A stretch of 40,275 bases of DNA from an uncultured Bacilli bacterium (GTDB lineage Bacteria > Bacillota_I > Bacilli_A > RF39 > UBA660): assembly GCA_944363595.1 (NCBI GenBank), contig CALVUN010000044.1, positions 1 to 40,275 of the forward strand, in the 5' to 3' direction. Position numbers and translations under genes: made by a program. Below, piece by piece: positions 23,797-33,450 of this stretch (its first letter is position 1; each line of letters starts with the position of its first letter). The notes under the pieces are model-generated. The model ran no database searches. It was not told where the DNA came from and worked only from the letters and a program-made list of their open reading frames with translations.

Positions 23797-24408
23797 ATGA
23801 AAAGAAAATTTTTAGATAGCTCCTTAGCTTTAATTAGGAAAAATAATCCTTCAATTAGTGATGTCAAGTTAGATGAGATTGCTTATGGATTAGAGGGCAT
23901 TTATCTGACAATGACTAAAACAATTATAATTTTTGCTTTAGCTTTGATATTAGGAATTGTAAAAGAGGTTCTTTTATTGCTGGTATTGTATAATGTAATA
24001 CGATCTACGGCTTTTGGTTTACACGCTACTAAAAGTGTATATTGTCTCATATCATCTACAACTTTATTCGTTGGTGGTGTATTTATTTGTGAAATGATAC
24101 AAATTATTTTGCCAATTAAAATTGCTATCGCAATATTTTGTGTTATTTGTCTTTTTAAATATGCTCCTGCAGATACGGAAAAAAGACCTATTATTAATCC
24201 TAAAAAAAGGAAAAGGCTAAAAATTATAAGCACAATATCAGGAATTATATTTACTTTTCTAATTATAATTTTTAATGACCATATCATTAGTAATTATTTA
24301 TTAGTTGCAATGATTTATTCGGTTGTTATGATTCATCCTTATGTTTATAAATTTTTTCATCTTTCATATGACAACTATAAAAAATATGAAGTTGTCAACA
24401 ACCTATAA
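23797..24408 (+). CDS. agrB: Accessory gene regulator protein B (AgrB)
   Basis: AgrB is the membrane cysteine peptidase that cleaves the C-terminal tail of AgrD and forms the thiolactone ring of the autoinducing peptide. The 203-residue protein has several hydrophobic segments. The catalytic motif is Arg-Ser-Thr-Ala-Phe-Gly-Leu-His-Ala-Thr, with His76 and Cys83 matching the His77/Cys84 pair of Staphylococcus aureus. AGGTGA precedes the start. It is followed 23 bases later by agrD on the same strand, while agrA and the kinases face it from the opposite strand. In the canonical order agrBDCA all genes share one strand, so this arrangement is rearranged. Confidence 0.94.
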   Translation: MKRKFLDSSLALIRKNNPSISDVKLDEIAYGLEGIYLTMTKTIIIFALALILGIVKEVLLLLVLYNVIRSTAFGLHATKSVYCLISSTTLFVGGVFICEMIQIILPIKIAIAIFCVICLFKYAPADTEKRPIINPKKRKRLKIISTISGIIFTFLIIIFNDHIISNYLLVAMIYSVVMIHPYVYKFFHLSYDNYKKYEVVNNL

Positions 24409-24431: not shown

Positions 24432-24554
24432 ATGGGAAAATTAGCTGCAATTTTAGCTGCAATTGGTTCTGCTGCTGCATCTATGGGTACTCAAGCATGC
24501 TGGTTTTTAATTGTTGATGAACCAAAAATGCCAAGAAGTTTAATTGAAAAATAA
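24432..24554 (+). CDS. agrD: AgrD autoinducing peptide precursor
   Basis: This small gene of 40 codons lies just after agrB with a perfect AGGAGG (24419-24424). Its layout is that of AgrD: an amphipathic, Ala-rich N-terminal helix (residues 2-18), a core Thr-Gln-Ala-Cys-Trp-Phe-Leu-Ile-Val with Cys23, and an acidic tail Asp-Glu-Pro-Lys-Met-Pro-Arg-Ser-Leu-Ile. The tail is the recognition part for AgrB. If cleavage falls before Asp29 the ring would be six residues (Cys-Trp-Phe-Leu-Ile-Val), one more than in S. aureus; if it falls before Val28 it would be five. The hydrophobic ring is typical of clostridial peptides. No other gene of this sort lies near. Confidence 0.94.
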   Translation: MGKLAAILAAIGSAAASMGTQACWFLIVDEPKMPRSLIEK

Positions 24555-24603: not shown

Positions 24604-24645
24604 AAAAATCTATATAATTAGCAACAAATTATATAGATTTTTTTT
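24604..24645. terminator. Bidirectional terminator between agrBD and agrC
   Basis: AAATCTATATAATT (24606-24619) and AATTATATAGATTT (24627-24640) form a perfect 14-bp stem with T runs on both strands. It separates the convergent agrBD and agrA-agrC transcripts. Any read-through would give antisense RNA into the other unit. Confidence 0.85.
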
Positions 24646-25948
24646 ATTTTTTATGTTTTATGGTTAATATTTGGACATAAACATTTTGACGTATTTCTCT
24701 TCTTTGAACAAACATATTATTACTGTTTATGATATTTTTTACAAGCATTAAACCATGACCGCGTTTTTTTCCTTTAGTTGAAAATATTTCATTTCCTACA
24801 TCAGGATCTATTTCACCATCAAAAGAATTGGTAATAATTATTTTAACATCATCTTTTTCCTTATACACTTCAATTCCCATACTCTTACTTTTAGATATAG
24901 TACTTGCTTCAATGGCATTATCTAAGTATACACCAACAATTCTTCCCAACTGTTTAAAGTTATTTGGAGATAAATTATTTAAAAGTGAATTTTTAATTTT
25001 AGGTGAAATACTAATTGTAATATTAATACCTTTATTTTCTGCCTCTGAGGCTTTAAAATAAAACAATGCTTTCAGTCCATTTGATGGTAAATATTGAAAT
25101 TTAGCATAATAAGCTTGATTAATTGTAATATTTTCATCTAACAGACTATCTATATATTTAATAATATTTTGTTTGTTTTCTTGATCTATTATTTTTGACT
25201 TTATAGTTAATAATTGATTTTTATTTTCGTGATGTTGAATACGTTGCTTTTCAATTTCTACTTCATATGTTTTCATAAAATCTAATAATTTATCATATTC
25301 AAATTTTAGTTTATTATTTTCTAATGTCTGCCTTATTACCATAATGAGTGATACAAAAAAGAATATCATAATTATTAATGATGATATAAACTCTTGATTT
25401 ATTTGAAATCTGTTTGAAAATTTATAAAAAAAGTATATTATACATATAAATGTTAAAACAGATAATATAACAATTTTTATTGTATTTTCAATTTCAGCAT
25501 CAATAATTTTTCTTAATTTTTCATTTAAAATTAAACTAATTATTACTACTATAGCATTTGATATAAAATTACCTAATAAACTTCCTGCTAAGTTATTATA
25601 AAAAAGTTCTTTAGGAATTCTAAAAATTATTGTTATTGTAAAAATAATAAGCAATTCTATTACAACCATAATTATAGCATAAATAAAAGTTATAAATATA
25701 GATTTTTTATAATTTAACTTATATAGATATTTAAAAATAATCATATAAATTATAAATCCTAGCATTGTTTTTAATACTTCTGTTGAAATCTTATATATTA
25801 TTATGTAACTAAAAATCATTATTAATGTAAAAATTACTAATTTTTTCTTATTAACTTTTATTTTTTCATTTAAAACATTTTTTCCAAAAAAAATGGGAGC
25901 TATTACCAAAAATGTTCCACTTAGTATTTCACTTACATATCTTAACAT
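24644..25948 (-). CDS. agrC: AgrC-type sensor histidine kinase (intact copy)
   Basis: This 434-residue protein is a membrane receptor kinase of the AgrC (HPK10, GHKL) type, expected to sense the AgrD peptide. About six membrane segments fill residues 8-205, with a linker Leu-Leu-Asp-Phe-Met-Lys-Thr-Tyr-Glu. The phosphorylated histidine is in His-His-Glu-Asn-Lys-Asn-Gln-Leu (239-246). The ATP-binding module has the N box Tyr-Leu-Asp-Asn-Ala-Ile-Glu-Ala (341-348) and a G box Lys-Arg-Gly-His-Gly-Leu (395-400). The start at 25948 follows GAGGG. It is closely related to the kinase upstream, which is frameshifted, and both are read with agrA. About 170 gene-free bases lie between the two kinase genes. 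Confidence 0.9.
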   Translation of the reverse strand: MLRYVSEILSGTFLVIAPIFFGKNVLNEKIKVNKKKLVIFTLIMIFSYIIIYKISTEVLKTMLGFIIYMIIFKYLYKLNYKKSIFITFIYAIIMVVIELLIIFTITIIFRIPKELFYNNLAGSLLGNFISNAIVVIISLILNEKLRKIIDAEIENTIKIVILSVLTFICIIYFFYKFSNRFQINQEFISSLIIMIFFFVSLIMVIRQTLENNKLKFEYDKLLDFMKTYEVEIEKQRIQHHENKNQLLTIKSKIIDQENKQNIIKYIDSLLDENITINQAYYAKFQYLPSNGLKALFYFKASEAENKGINITISISPKIKNSLLNNLSPNNFKQLGRIVGVYLDNAIEASTISKSKSMGIEVYKEKDDVKIIITNSFDGEIDPDVGNEIFSTKGKKRGHGLMLVKNIINSNNMFVQRREIRQNVYVQILTIKHKK

Positions 25949-26118
25949 TATTATTCCCTCTTTCAAACGTGTTATATTCAATTTTTACTTTAATTATATA
26001 ATTTAAACAATATATTATATTTTATTTTTGTAAATATAATATAACAAAAGAGACTTTTTTATTAATTTATCGATAAATATTATATCATATATTATATTCT
26101 TTTAATATGTTTTTTAAA

Positions 26119-27425
26119 TTATTTTTCTTTTATAAGAAGTGTTTGTATGTATAAATCTTTTGAAATTTTTCTTTTTTGAATAAATATTTTATTATTATTA
26201 TTAATTATCTCTTTTACTAATAATAACCCATGTCCTCTATTTTTTCCTTTTGTTGAAAAAATTTTATTTCCAATATTTAGATCAATTTCTCCATTAAATG
26301 AATTTGTTATAATAAATTTTATATTTCCATCTATTACATATATTTCGATAGACATAGATTTTTTTTTGATAATTCACTTGCTTCGATGGCATTATCTAAA
26401 TAAACGCCTAAAATTCTACCAAGTTGTTTAAAATAATATGTATCAATTTTTTTTAGAAATGATTTTTCTACTTTTGATGATATATTTACCGTAACACTTA
26501 TTCCTCTATTTTCAGCTTCAGATACTTTAAAATAAAATAATGCTTTTATTCCATTACTTGGCAAATATCTAAATTTAGAATATTGTTCTTTTTTTACATC
26601 TTTATCATCTTTTAATATACTATTAATATATTTTATAATTTCTTCATTTTTTTCCTCATCAATAATTTTTGCTTTAATTGATAGTAATTGATTTTTATTT
26701 TCATGGTGATAAATTCTTTGATTATGTATTTCTTTTTCATATATCTTCATATATTCTAATAATTTATCATATTCTATATGCATCTTATTGTTCTCAATTT
26801 TTTGTTTGAATACACAATATAATAATATTAATAAAAATACAATAATTAATATCCAATTAATATATTCTTCTTGTATAATTAACTTTTTAAATATTTTATA
26901 AAAAAAATAAATTATGCAAAGCAATGTGATTAAAATTAAAATTTTTTTTATATTTTTTTCTTTTTTATTAATAATATTCTTGAATTTTTTACTGATCAAT
27001 AATGAAATTAATATAACTATTATATTACATAATAAATTACCATATGTTGTAGCTAGAAATAAATTATAAGAATTTTTTTCAGTCATTTTAAATATAAATA
27101 AAATTTTTAACATAATTGAATAAGTAATAATAGTAATTGTTGAAAAAATAAATGTAATAAAAAATACTTTTTCATTTTTTAACTTAAAAACATTTTTTAA
27201 AATTATTATAAAAATTATTAAGCTTATTATAGTTTTAAATATTCCATCTAGACACAGATAAACTAGGATATATAAACATATCATAGTTATTATTAAAATA
27301 ATTAGTTTTCTCTTATTTTTGATGATACTTTCATCTAAGATAATTAAGCCAAATAAAATGGGAGTAATTACCATAATTATCCCATTTACTATATTAATAA
27401 ATATACTATTTAAATTGTTTAACAT
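26119..27425 (-). pseudogene. Second AgrC-type kinase, split by a frameshift
   Basis: This gene encodes a near duplicate of the kinase downstream. Frame one (27425 to 26334) gives the membrane part, the histidine motif His-His-Glu-Asn-Lys-Asn-Gln-Leu and the N box Tyr-Leu-Asp-Asn-Ala-Ile-Glu-Ala, then leaves the frame after Ser-Lys-Lys and stops. A second frame (26355 to 26119) gives the missing end, with the G box Asn-Arg-Gly-His-Gly-Leu. The break lies in nine A residues (26359-26367 on this strand). Ten or seven would restore a protein of about 435 residues whose joint (Ser-Lys-Lys-Lys-Ser-Met) lines up with the intact copy. Its ATG overlaps the end of agrA by 20 bases, so translation is coupled. 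As read, the product cannot bind ATP. It could be decay, phase variation, slippage rescue or a sequencing error. Confidence 0.85.
26359..26367 (-). repeat. Nine-A homopolymer at the frameshift of the second agrC
   Basis: Nine consecutive T residues on the plus strand read as A9 in the coding strand. The reading frames of the two kinase halves differ by one base on either side of it. Poly-A tracts of this length are known sites for replication slippage and for RNA polymerase slippage in AT-rich bacteria. Confidence 0.9.
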
Positions 27426-28131
27426 GTTCTTTTAGGCCTTTCTTACGTCTAGATGATACTAAATATATTTCGACGCCATTAGAGAATGTTATTTTATTTT
27501 CAACAAAACTTACTTTTAGTATTTTTTGAACATTAACAATACATGATTTATGGGTCTGGTAAAATCTTTGATCTAACATTTTACTTATTTCATGTAATGG
27601 TTTGTTTACTTCAATTTTGAAACCACTTTCTAATGTTATAATACATTTTTTAGTCATTTGTAACTTTTCGATATAGATAATATCATCGAGTGCAATTTGA
27701 TAATCAATATGATAAGTTGTAAATGTCATAAACTTAGTCTCATTAATAGCATTTAAGGCTATTTTTATTGTTTCACACAATCTTTCTTTACAAAAATGTT
27801 GTTTTTCAATAAAATCTAATGGCATTAGTCTTGAAAAAATAACATCATCTTTATATTTGCGATGATTAGTTATGAAAATGATAATACTTTTCCAATCATT
27901 TTCTCTAATCATAGAGCCAATTTCTAAACCTGAGACATCTCCTACTTCAATATCTAAAATATAGATATTAAGACCTTCTTTATTTCTTATTTTTTGTTCT
28001 AAATTTTCATTATATTCATTAAATCGATGAATACGATAAGCTACATCTTTTAACAATGGTGATTGGTTAATTGTGTTACTTATCATTTCTATATCTTTGT
28101 CTTTATCTTCATAAATGATGAAATTTAGCAT
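27406..28131 (-). CDS. agrA: AgrA-type response regulator (receiver plus LytTR)
   Basis: This 241-residue protein has a receiver domain with the phosphorylation site Asp60 (Tyr-Ile-Leu-Asp-Ile-Glu) and a conserved Asp9. Residues about 138-240 form a LytTR DNA-binding domain with Ile-Ile-Tyr-Ile-Glu, Gln-Thr-His-Lys-Ser-Cys-Ile-Val-Asn and Ser-Arg-Arg-Lys-Lys-Gly-Leu. LytTR regulators of the AgrA class bind pairs of 9-bp direct repeats and activate agr promoters. It is the first gene of agrA-agrC2-agrC1, and its end overlaps the next start. Upstream on the minus strand TATAAT (28168-28173) lacks a good -35 box, as expected for an activator-dependent promoter. The call is by family; its targets are unknown. 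Confidence 0.92.
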   Translation of the reverse strand: MLNFIIYEDKDKDIEMISNTINQSPLLKDVAYRIHRFNEYNENLEQKIRNKEGLNIYILDIEVGDVSGLEIGSMIRENDWKSIIIFITNHRKYKDDVIFSRLMPLDFIEKQHFCKERLCETIKIALNAINETKFMTFTTYHIDYQIALDDIIYIEKLQMTKKCIITLESGFKIEVNKPLHEISKMLDQRFYQTHKSCIVNVQKILKVSFVENKITFSNGVEIYLVSSRRKKGLKEHVKQFK

Positions 28132-29648: not shown

Positions 29649-29690
29649 ATTATATCATGTATGCTTTAAAATGTAAATTAAGTAAAGCAT
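29649..29690 (-). promoter_or_regulatory. ctpA promoter with inverted repeat over the -35 box
   Basis: On the minus strand TTTACA (29672-29677) and TATAAT (29649-29654) are exactly 17 bases apart, about 26 bases upstream of the start. ATGCTTTA (29661-29668) and TAAAGCAT (29683-29690) form a perfect 8-bp inverted repeat that encloses the -35 hexamer, so a regulator is likely. It ends just before the sigma-G -35 box of the ger operon. Confidence 0.6.
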
Positions 29691-29719
29691 GAATATTTGT
29701 TTATTTTTTTTACATAATA
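29691..29719 (+). promoter_or_regulatory. Sigma-G-type promoter of the ger operon
   Basis: GAATA (29691-29695) and CATAATA (29713-29719) are separated by 17 bases. The sigma-G consensus in Bacillus is GHATR, 17-18 bases, CATWHTA; every position fits. Transcription would start near 29726, leaving a short leader with GAGGTGA before the ATG at 29743. An upstream in-frame ATG at 29689 lies before this promoter and can be discounted. Confidence 0.65.
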
Positions 29720-29742
29720 ATTATGATTATGAGGTGACTAAT

Positions 29743-31194
29743 ATGTTAAAAGATAGCGATATGATTGTAAATAAATTAAAAAAAGAAACTAATAATAATG
29801 GGGACATTATTTATAGAGTTAAATATATTAATAAGCAAAAATTATATGTTATTTATAATGAGCCTTTATGTTCATCGGAAATGATTAGTAATTTTATTAT
29901 TAGAAGTTTGGATTTTATAGACAATAAGTATAAACGTAAAGTTGATATTGTCAGTGTTATTAAGAATGATATTAATAATTTTAAGGTTAAAGAAATTACA
30001 ACTTATGAAGATTTGTGTTTTTATTTACATAATGCTTTTACAATTATTTTAGTTGATGGTTATGATACAGCTTTAGCCATGGAAAATAAGGGAGCTTTGT
30101 CAAGAGGAATTGATAAACCTACAACAGAGAGCACACTTAGAGGGCCAATGGATGCTTTTGTGGAAAATATACAAATTAATTTGGGATTAATTCGTAGAAG
30201 GCTTAAAGATAATAAACTTTGGAGTAAAGAGTATTTTTTAGGCAGGTATACTAAGACCAAAACTAATGTTTTATATATAGATGGTATTGCTAAAAAAGAA
30301 ATTGTCGATAAAGTTGATAAATTGATTAAAAAGATTGATATTGATGGTGTTATTAATTTGGGAACAATTAAGAATTTTATTCAGAAAGAAAATAAATCGG
30401 CTTTTCCTACGATAATAACAACTGAAAGACCTGATCATGTTTGTCAAGCTTTATTAAAGGGAAAAATTGCTATTTTAATGGATAATTGTCCATTTGTCTT
30501 AATCTTGCCTACTTTTTTTAATGATTTTTTCTTATCACTTGAAGATGATTCTAACCAAAGTATTAATATTTCTTTTACACGTATAATTAGATACATTGCT
30601 TTTTTTATAACTGTTTTGACACCAGGAATATATATTGCTATTACTACTTATAATCAGGAAATGTTACCAACAGAACTTTTGATAAGTTTTGCAGGGCAAA
30701 GAAGCTCAGTTCCTTTTCCCGCATTTTTTGAAGCTCTTTTAATGACATTGTCTTTTGAAATTTTGAGGGAAAGTGACCTTAGAATACCTAGTACTTCTAG
30801 TAGTGCTTTATCAATTGTTGGAGCATTAATTTTGGGAGAAGCTGCCGTTAATGCTGGAATTGTATCTCCTATTATGATTATTGTTGTATCTATTACGATG
30901 ATTTCTTCTTTGTTATTTATTGAACCTGACTTTATTAATGGAATTAGATGGTGGCGTTTATTTTTTATGTTAGGTGGTAGCTTTATGGGAATTATTGGTA
31001 TTGTTTTAGTATTTATTACTTTTATGATTAAGATTGCTAGTATTAAATCTTTTGGCAAACCATATTTAATGCCTTTTGTCCCAACTTCAATTGATGGATT
31101 AAAAAATAGTGTTATTAAATTTCCTTTAAAATATTTGAATAGGAGAGAAAAATATTTATCTAGTAATACTTATCGAATGGGGGATGATGAGTAA
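29743..31194 (+). CDS. gerKA: Spore germination receptor subunit A (GerA family)
   Basis: This 483-residue protein is the A subunit of a GerA-type germinant receptor in the inner spore membrane. A soluble N-terminal half holds Thr-Glu-Ser-Thr-Leu-Arg-Gly-Pro near residue 130, a family hallmark. A membrane half follows with Pro-Phe-Pro-Ala-Phe-Phe-Glu-Ala, Ile-Pro-Ser-Thr-Ser-Ser-Ser-Ala-Leu-Ser-Ile-Val-Gly-Ala-Leu and Gly-Glu-Ala-Ala-Val. GAGGTGA precedes the start. It is first of an operon A-C-B with overlapping ends. Which germinant it senses cannot be told; gerKA is used as a family label only. Confidence 0.95.
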   Translation: MLKDSDMIVNKLKKETNNNGDIIYRVKYINKQKLYVIYNEPLCSSEMISNFIIRSLDFIDNKYKRKVDIVSVIKNDINNFKVKEITTYEDLCFYLHNAFTIILVDGYDTALAMENKGALSRGIDKPTTESTLRGPMDAFVENIQINLGLIRRRLKDNKLWSKEYFLGRYTKTKTNVLYIDGIAKKEIVDKVDKLIKKIDIDGVINLGTIKNFIQKENKSAFPTIITTERPDHVCQALLKGKIAILMDNCPFVLILPTFFNDFFLSLEDDSNQSINISFTRIIRYIAFFITVLTPGIYIAITTYNQEMLPTELLISFAGQRSSVPFPAFFEALLMTLSFEILRESDLRIPSTSSSALSIVGALILGEAAVNAGIVSPIMIIVVSITMISSLLFIEPDFINGIRWWRLFFMLGGSFMGIIGIVLVFITFMIKIASIKSFGKPYLMPFVPTSIDGLKNSVIKFPLKYLNRREKYLSSNTYRMGDDE

Positions 31195-32378
31195 TGAAAA
31201 AGTTATTGATTTTAGTTGTCTCTTTGTTATGCCTTAGTGGTTGTTTTAATTATCGTGAACTTAATGATCTTGCAATTATGACAGCAGTGGCGATCGATCG
31301 AACAGATGATGGATTTGAACTTACATTGCAAGTAGTTAATCCAAAAAAACAACAAGATTCCTCTAATGCTAGTCAGCCTGATTTTATAGTTTATACTACT
31401 AAAGGAGAATCATTACAAAAGGCTTTTAGAGAAGTTGTCAATACTGCCCCTAAAAGGTTATATGCTGCTCATTTGCAATTATTGGTATTAAGTGAGGAAG
31501 TTGCTACTAATTATATTGATGAAATTGTTGACTTTTTCTTTAGGGAACCTGAGGTTAGAGATGAATTTCAAGTAATGGTAGCTAAAGGGGAAAAGGCAAA
31601 GGATAAATTAACTATTATGACTCCTTTGACAACTTTATCTTCAATGGATATTTTTAATACACTTGATAGTAATAAAAAATATTTAGGTTCGGTTACTAGT
31701 ATTACTTTTAATGATTTTATGCATGCTTATCTTGATCCAAATACAGAGATTGTTTTACCTGTTTTAGAAGTTATAGGGAATAGTGAAGAAGGGAATAGTC
31801 AAGAAAATTTGGAAACTTCTACTTCACTAGCTAATCTTAAACTTTCTTCTATGGCTATTTTTAAAGATAATAAATTGGTTGAGATATTGGATGAAAATGA
31901 TAGTATTAACCTTAATATGTTACTAGGAGAATTAAATGAGACAATTGTTCAATATGAATGTGGTGATGATGAATATGCGGCCTTTGAAATTATATCTTTA
32001 AATAGTGAACTGGAAGTTGATCCTGACAAAAATAAGGCTACTTTTTCTATCGCAGGACACGCTAGTGTTAATGAGGTGCAATGTCCTCTTAATCTTAGGG
32101 AAATTGATGTAGGAAATGAGATGCGCGATAATCTTAATAAATCAATGAAAGAATCTCTTTTAAAAACCATTAACTTGATAAGAGATGATTACAATACAGA
32201 TGTTTTTGGTATAAGAGATAGTTTTTATAAGTATTATCCTAATGATTATAAGGAATATGCTGATAAATGGTACGATTTGTTTTTTCCTAATTTGGATATC
32301 GATGTTGATGTTAATATTAAATTATATGAAAAGGGAAATATTTTAGGAGGAACAGAATATGATAAAAGAGAAAATTAA
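31194..32378 (+). CDS. gerKC: Spore germination receptor subunit C, lipoprotein (GerAC family)
   Basis: The 394-residue product has a signal peptide ending in the lipobox Leu-Ser-Gly-Cys, followed by Phe-Asn-Tyr-Arg-Glu-Leu-Asn-Asp, the usual start of mature GerAC-type proteins (Cys-Trp/Phe-x-x-Arg-Glu-Leu). The C-terminal domain has the Asp-Tyr-Lys-Glu-Tyr-Ala-Asp-Lys-Trp-Tyr-Asp pattern typical of the family. Its ATG overlaps the stop of the A subunit (TAATG), which implies translational coupling. The subunit is thought to sit on the outer face of the inner spore membrane next to A and B. Confidence 0.95.
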   Translation: MKKLLILVVSLLCLSGCFNYRELNDLAIMTAVAIDRTDDGFELTLQVVNPKKQQDSSNASQPDFIVYTTKGESLQKAFREVVNTAPKRLYAAHLQLLVLSEEVATNYIDEIVDFFFREPEVRDEFQVMVAKGEKAKDKLTIMTPLTTLSSMDIFNTLDSNKKYLGSVTSITFNDFMHAYLDPNTEIVLPVLEVIGNSEEGNSQENLETSTSLANLKLSSMAIFKDNKLVEILDENDSINLNMLLGELNETIVQYECGDDEYAAFEIISLNSELEVDPDKNKATFSIAGHASVNEVQCPLNLREIDVGNEMRDNLNKSMKESLLKTINLIRDDYNTDVFGIRDSFYKYYPNDYKEYADKWYDLFFPNLDIDVDVNIKLYEKGNILGGTEYDKREN

Positions 32379-33450
32379 TTCTTTACAACTCTCTAGTTTT
32401 ATTGTTAGTTCTATAATTGCTTCTTTAACTGGAATTGGTATTTATATTGCAACTGAAGTAGCAGTAATTGATGCATGGATTAGTGTAATTATAAGTTCTA
32501 TTATGGGTATAATACCTTTGATAATGATTATTTTTTTGTTTAGTTTTGAACCAAATAAAACAATAATAGAAAAGATTAATTTTATTTTTGGTAATTTTTG
32601 GGGATTTATTATTAATTTTTTAATTACAGTGATTGTCTTTATTATTGCGGCGACTGATTTATTTAATATTGCTAATTTTTTGATTACACAGTTTTTGTCA
32701 GAAACGCCATTGCTTTTTATTTGTTTATTGTTTTGTGGTGTTAGTTTTTATGCTATTTCTAAGGGATTTGAAACTATTTCGCGTGTCAATTTATTTTTTG
32801 TGGGAATATTAATAGTTATTTTTATTATTTTTATTGGCTCTCTTATTCCACAGATTCAAATTGAAAATTATATGCCTATATTGGTTAATGGGATTAAAAA
32901 ACCTATAATAGGAGGATTTTTAGTTATGTTAGCTAATATTGTACCTATTTTTTTAATATTAATATTTCCTAAAAATGGCGTCGTGGATAAAAAGAAACTT
33001 AATTTATATTTGACTATTTTCTATATTATTGCAATCATATGTGCTATTGCATCAATGATGATAATTGTTGGGATACTAGGTGAATATTTGATTAAATCAT
33101 ATCAATATCCAGAATATGCTGTTCTTAAGAAAATTTCTTTGTTTGGTTTTATTGATAGAATTGAGAATTTGTTATCTTTACAGTGGATACTTAGTTGTTT
33201 TTCATTACTTACTTTATGTATATATTTTATAAGTAGTGGAATTAAAAAAGTAAAAAATAGTAAATTAGTTCCTATTATAGTAATTGGTATTATTATTACT
33301 ATGGTTTTAGTAATATTTAAAAGTAATACATATTTTAATTTTTATATTCTTAATATTTATCCTTATATATTACTTGGACTTTTTTCTTTATTTGTTATTG
33401 TTGTAATTGGTGCCTTGGTAAAAAAGAAAAAGAAGAAGAAGAAAAATTAA
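32359..33450 (+). CDS. gerKB: Spore germination receptor subunit B (GerAB family permease-like)
   Basis: The B subunit is an APC-type, amino-acid-permease-like membrane protein that is thought to bind the germinant. The 363-residue protein has about ten hydrophobic segments and starts with Ile-Asn-Ser-Leu-Gln-Leu-Ser-Ser-Phe, as in the family. Its start (after AGGAGG) lies 20 bases inside the gerKC end. The last eight residues are Lys-Lys-Lys-Lys-Lys-Lys-Lys-Asn, an unusually basic tail encoded by an A/G-only stretch. The gene order A-C-B differs from the A-B-C of Bacillus gerA but occurs in gerK-like operons. Confidence 0.94.
   Translation: MIKEKINSLQLSSFIVSSIIASLTGIGIYIATEVAVIDAWISVIISSIMGIIPLIMIIFLFSFEPNKTIIEKINFIFGNFWGFIINFLITVIVFIIAATDLFNIANFLITQFLSETPLLFICLLFCGVSFYAISKGFETISRVNLFFVGILIVIFIIFIGSLIPQIQIENYMPILVNGIKKPIIGGFLVMLANIVPIFLILIFPKNGVVDKKKLNLYLTIFYIIAIICAIASMMIIVGILGEYLIKSYQYPEYAVLKKISLFGFIDRIENLLSLQWILSCFSLLTLCIYFISSGIKKVKNSKLVPIIVIGIIITMVLVIFKSNTYFNFYILNIYPYILLGLFSLFVIVVIGALVKKKKKKKKN

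Follow-up and report, generated by a model that had tools for sequence, protein, structure and literature searches.

In Staphylococcus aureus, frameshifts occur in 5.7% of agr operons and agrC has the greatest number of different ones; changes in A-runs are included, the A-run sites recur, and the frameshifts are common, mostly recent and short-lived (PMC8768832). Reversion of poly(A) changes in S. aureus agrA has been demonstrated (Traber and Novick 2006, as cited in PMC6686034). According to the GeneTack survey, singleton frameshifts (orphan genes apart) are expected to stem from indel mutations or sequencing errors, and programmed events and phase variation are to be found among the clustered ones (PMC3711429). 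Here we describe agrC2, a frameshifted gene for an AgrC-type histidine kinase receptor, which lies beside its intact paralogue agrC1 on contig C44 (CALVUN010000044.1; 40,275 nucleotides, hereafter the window) of an uncultured Bacilli bacterium. The source genome (GCA_944363595.1) is a fragmented assembly of 1.25 Mb in 83 contigs, 91.6% complete and with 26.6% GC; it is taken to be a metagenome assembly, as are its relatives in public collections. As far as tested, the agrC2 frameshift is a singleton. We consider it probable that agrC2 is a relaxed or dispensable tandem paralogue that has recently undergone a slippage indel in a run of nine A (A9), and that the lesion is possibly leaky or revertible.

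The agrC2 case appears to work like the known S. aureus agr frameshifts, with the addition of a spare receptor copy. What it has in common with the S. aureus agrA variants (PMC6686034) is a one-base A-run change of the kind that shifts the frame of an agr regulatory gene and silences or delays signalling, in some instances reversibly. In contrast, those variants affect the sole response regulator gene and their reversion was shown experimentally, whereas agrC2 is a spare paralogue beside an intact one and is known from sequence alone. The likeness to the convergent S. aureus frameshifts (PMC8768832) lies in their recurrent A-run sites and mostly recent, short-lived occurrence; ours comes from a different lineage and host niche, and from one genome. 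If the break is real, the pattern of slippage-prone agr genes would reach beyond staphylococci into uncultured gut Bacilli that carry tandem receptors, and the case would be a clean example of a decaying agr receptor duplicate. At present the case amounts to a single paralogue with a frameshift, seen in a single metagenome assembly.

The frame of agrC2 breaks exactly at A9 while both sides are otherwise intact, which supports a slippage indel (Table 1). The upstream open reading frame (ORF) encodes 363 amino acids and ends ...LDNAIEASELSKKNLCLSKYM*; the downstream ORF encodes 78 amino acids counted from ATG, and its frame stays open for a few codons further upstream. A first-pass annotation of the window had placed the two halves in frames one base apart, meeting at A9, and both ORFs and the run of exactly nine A on the minus strand were verified. 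Zero-frame codons across the run are TCA AAA AAA AAT. With one more A, or after a -1 ribosomal shift, the reading becomes S-K-K-K-S-M-S-I-E and lines up in register with S-K-S-K-S-M-G-I-E of AgrC1 and S-K-E-K-S-M-S-I-E of the same-genus AgrC2, so that the Ser-Lys-x-Lys-Ser-Met alignment claimed for the repaired join is borne out. The break was also correctly placed between the ATP-binding boxes: the N box DNAIEAS (residues 344-350) precedes the tract, and the G box STKGKNRGHGLLLV follows it in the other frame and is lacking from the product as written. Neither half alone gave a Pfam domain match. In the read-through protein, an HATPase_c match at 334-416 spans the join (19.5 bits, below the curated cut-off of 26.4), and residues 35-428 align to the NCBIfam staphylococcal AgrC model (46.8 bits, far below the equivalog cut-off of 500).

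We then placed agrC2 in a comparison set of one genome per species, in which two species of the genus were sampled (the source genome and a sister species). In a tree of 32 sequences, the two AgrC1 copies group together (99/98), as do the two AgrC2 copies (99/96). Since each copy pairs with its counterpart, agrC was duplicated before the two sampled species diverged. In both species the end branches of AgrC2 are about twice as long as those of AgrC1 (0.53 and 0.54 versus 0.27 and 0.31). Kinase-region identity of the AgrC1 pair is 84% before the break site and 81% after it, against 62% and 53% for the AgrC2 pair. The sister agrC2 (L021:14165-15304) has lost about 57 sensor residues in frame and retains a complete, in-frame kinase end. 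Faster evolution of agrC2 together with this different sensor lesion fits what may be relaxed constraint on the gene.

Downstream of the break, 79 aligned codons remain in register without an extra stop, and differences from the orthologue amount to 0.32, 0.23 and 0.44 at codon positions 1, 2 and 3, similar to the upstream part. This coding-type pattern and the lack of stops indicate that translation of the downstream part in its own frame continued until recently, or goes on still through slippage. Because the periodicity persists without extra stops, the break would be recent. The first-pass annotation had asked for additional stops as a sign that the gene is simply dead; as there are none, agrC2 is recently broken, polymorphic, leaky or mis-assembled.

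Taken together, agrC2 is an old tandem duplicate, predating the separation of the two sampled species, that appears to be held under weaker constraint than agrC1. A recent one-base length change, probably by replication slippage, would have occurred in the A-run of its lysine-rich S-K-x-K linker. The main product would be truncated, a receptor that has the sensor, the phospho-acceptor histidine and the N box; the annotation was right that the first-frame product keeps the sensor and histidine region. With the break lying after the N box and ahead of the G box, this product should have no ATP-binding site and should not autophosphorylate. Intact AgrC1 and AgrA would keep running the agr system. 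A minority of full-length AgrC2 and occasional reversion are likely as by-products, since DNA and RNA polymerases are both prone to slip on A9 and its phase suits -1 ribosomal slippage. Two considerations weigh against this reading. The evidence comes from one genome of the species, with an assembly error at the single A9 tract as an unlikely alternative, and the lack of a second lesion would also fit a maintained, revertible or recoded agrC2.

An assembly or sequencing error would mean that agrC2 is intact in the organism and that one base was lost in the metagenome assembly. The fragmented state of the assembly and the perfectly open downstream frame are consistent with such an error, and the same genome holds artefact-like runs of 13-17 A or T that replace unique bases, at L046:2255-2268 (tsaD), L050:16102-16118 (uppS) and L098:3663-3676 (upstream of topA), with further runs of this appearance at L079:150-166 and L091:117-132. 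Runs of at least 10 were compared at the DNA level. In tsaD, a relative reads TTATTTTGCTTATCAAAAAGG and the source genome TTATTAAAAAAAAAAAAAAGG, with a gained in-frame stop; T17 has overwritten SGRRE-type residues of uppS, and the topA leader shows the same overwriting. Possibly, unknown bases were written as A, and the reading of any long A/T tract in this genome is affected. However, the three runs closely compared (tsaD, uppS, topA leader) keep their length and several artefact runs lie near contig ends, whereas A9 is interior and one base short. Because this class of artefact keeps length and exceeds nine bases, it does not explain the missing base, and we rejected A9 as simply one of the overwritten runs.

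A generally homopolymer-prone assembly was likewise rejected. In a homopolymer census of about 0.90 of the 1.25 Mb, sampled as stretches, 13 homopolymers of at least 7 stood at ORF junctions. Only at the agrC2 A9 was a gene truly split; read individually, the remaining junctions look like ordinary gene ends, overlaps or antisense ORFs. A split-gene screen against 0.72 Mb of the same-genus genome covered 306 conserved genes and returned one split-like case, a 97%-identical pair whose difference is confined to the N-terminus. When one-base deletions were made in silico, 275 of 288 conserved genes were caught (95% sensitivity); agrC2 itself escapes the screen, its best match being the paralogue. 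Within conserved gene regions, 283 A-runs (223 A7, 57 A8 and 3 A9) are intact, and the 306-gene screen, at this sensitivity, found no other frameshift in housekeeping genes. These counts argue against an assembly error, which we regard as unlikely.

Evolved phase variation, in which tract length flips in the population and toggles AgrC2 on and off, would place a quorum-sensing receptor under phase variation if the tract varied among cells. Reversible switching of S. aureus agr by agrA poly(A) changes (PMC6686034) is a precedent, and no further decay of agrC2 is seen. At nine bases the tract is long enough for slippage, and A9 is otherwise avoided inside genes of the source genome (586 A7, 164 A8 and 11 A9 internal runs in sense coding sequence over 0.90 Mb), as in many bacteria (PMC1088944); as a mere A-run within a gene, it is unremarkable at 26.6% GC. 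Against this, the tract is not conserved. The same-genus agrC2 orthologue reads TCAAAAGAAAAGTCAATG / AAAAGAAAAG at the break site, without a long A-run. The S-K-x-K linker is A-rich in many of the approximately 30 AgrC genes examined, where the run is usually 4 and at longest 8, and A9 occurs there in the source agrC2 only. Moreover, only the faster-evolving copy is affected, and no length variants are known from one genome per species. We therefore consider phase variation quite improbable.

Regular recoding, through transcriptional slippage on A9 or -1 shifting on A_AAA_AAA, would yield full-length and short AgrC2 side by side. In Thermus dnaX, transcriptional slippage on nine A's is efficient (PMC1088944), and on inspection of the sequence the heptamer has the correct phase for -1 ribosomal slippage. 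Compared with the 9A/9T slippage sites of Thermus dnaX and IS elements (PMC1088944), agrC2 has the same tract length and, in one frame, a stop soon past it; those sites came to light through conservation among homologues or through experiments, whereas conservation of the agrC2 A9 was tested and is absent. No stimulatory RNA structure was found downstream of the heptamer (z = -0.07), and no Shine-Dalgarno-like stretch was seen upstream of A9 on inspection. On general grounds a certain amount of slipped product is likely, but leakiness alone does not equal programming. Programmed use of A9 is not supported, and regular recoding is very unlikely. It is also highly improbable that AgrC2 is a tunable receptor, in which A9 slippage would mix full-length and kinase-dead forms in each cell that heterodimerise with AgrC1 or sequester peptide, set the quorum threshold, and shift heritably with tract length. 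Finally, that the truncated form is itself selected as a decoy or dominant-negative partner of AgrC1 is extremely unlikely: the short form does keep the sensor and phospho-acceptor (DHp) region, but until recently the downstream part was evolving as protein in its own frame, and the sister species shows the reverse of a decoy, a retained kinase end with part of the sensor gone.

The first-pass annotation had seen in A9 a natural slippage site that made ON/OFF switching of quorum sensing possible, and had suggested peptide titration and inactive heterodimers as functions of the short product. A slippage origin is plausible. Nothing positive was found in favour of the functional proposals: neither the same-genus orthologue nor any other AgrC examined has the tract, AgrC2 evolves faster than AgrC1 and its sister orthologue is damaged differently, and the stimulatory structure is missing. 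Nothing shows that the break is a built-in on/off switch; a programmed switch and a decoy receptor both remain unsupported, and a recent slippage indel in a dispensable duplicate is the reading we retain.

The agr system of the window is complete, comprising agrB, agrD, two AgrC-type (HPK10/GHKL) kinase genes and an adjoining LytTR AgrA; agrB, agrD, agrC1 and agrA are recognised by Pfam or NCBIfam matches (Table 1). On the plus strand lie agrB and agrD; agrA, then agrC2, then agrC1 are on the minus strand. The final 20 bases of agrA overlap the start of agrC2, and agrC1 starts with TTG at 25981, with an internal ATG near 25948. No Rfam match was obtained in the agr locus.

Table 1. Features of the agr locus in the window, and copies of a G-run intergenic element in the genus
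Feature	Position	Strand	Evidence
agrB, peptide-processing membrane protease, intact	23797..24408	+	Pfam PF04647 AgrB, E=1.4e-33
agrD, cyclic autoinducing peptide precursor, intact	24432..24554	+	NCBIfam TIGR04223 quorum_AgrD, 25.7 bits vs cut-off 19
agrC1, histidine kinase receptor, intact	24644..25981	-	PF14501 GHKL, 35.9 bits vs cut-off 22; groups with same-genus AgrC1 (99/98)
agrC2 C-terminal part: remaining ATP-binding domain and G box, -1 frame, no internal stop	26119..26355	-	60% identity to AgrC1 351-435
agrC2 N-terminal part: sensor transmembrane region, phospho-acceptor region, N box; stop 8 codons past A-run	26334..27425	-	ORF and alignment
A9 tract at frame break	26359..26367	-	sequence; 26361-26367 = A_AAA_AAA, phase of -1 ribosomal slippery heptamer
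agrA, LytTR response regulator, intact	27406..28131	-	PF04397 LytTR and PF00072
G-run element copies, source genome (G000)	L040:4173, L043:3329, L085:8672; L039:119(-), L050:183(-), L061:133(-)		
G-run element copies, sister species (G001) (and others)	L142:6634, L146:11739 and 17227, L157:8798; L152:14661(-), L163:6655(-), L166:1661(-)		

Tandem agrC genes recur in the family, at L113 and L101 (two copies each), G060:C5, G386:C21 and G110:C13. In G200 and MAG.282, two agrC-related sequences stand side by side and each pair groups with itself in the tree; because these copies pair within their own genome, agrC duplication happened repeatedly in the family. In another genome (L023:3748-4521, G023), an AgrC homologue lacks its N-terminal sensor half or has it in degraded form, with upstream stops in the matching frame, and adjoins an intact agrA. 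An alignment scan of public genomes returned four relatives, all from metagenome assemblies (uncultured Bacilli and 'Erysipelotrichaceae'). A pattern scan of public genomes gave no match to AgrC2-only patterns, the patterns chosen being poorly conserved, and viral contigs contained neither the A9 tract nor relatives.

Elsewhere in the genus, a genus-specific, multi-copy intergenic element consists of a Shine-Dalgarno-like stretch followed by a short ORF (e.g. MQKLNFKSLTYCILGGGV) that ends in a G9-G12 run, within a genome of 26.6% GC. Many copies have a terminator-like hairpin (ACTACAAAG...CTTTGTAGTTTTTT) after the G-run, and most copies with enough downstream sequence are followed by an ORF with a secretion-signal-like start (MKKYYLLLLLIITLAG..YGTYAMFTS), which looks like a putative TasA/camelysin-type surface protein. 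A strict pattern matched 8 copies in the source genome (4 G9, 4 G10) and 6 in the sister species, with none in 38 other genomes; the L085 copy had no Rfam match. The G-run element is a better candidate for phase variation or attenuation than the agrC2 A9.

Beside the agr locus, at 29689-33450 of the window, lies a row of three genes that by eye resembles a spore germinant receptor operon (GerA/GerC/GerB-like). The sister species conserves the row, and G019 has at least the first two of its genes.
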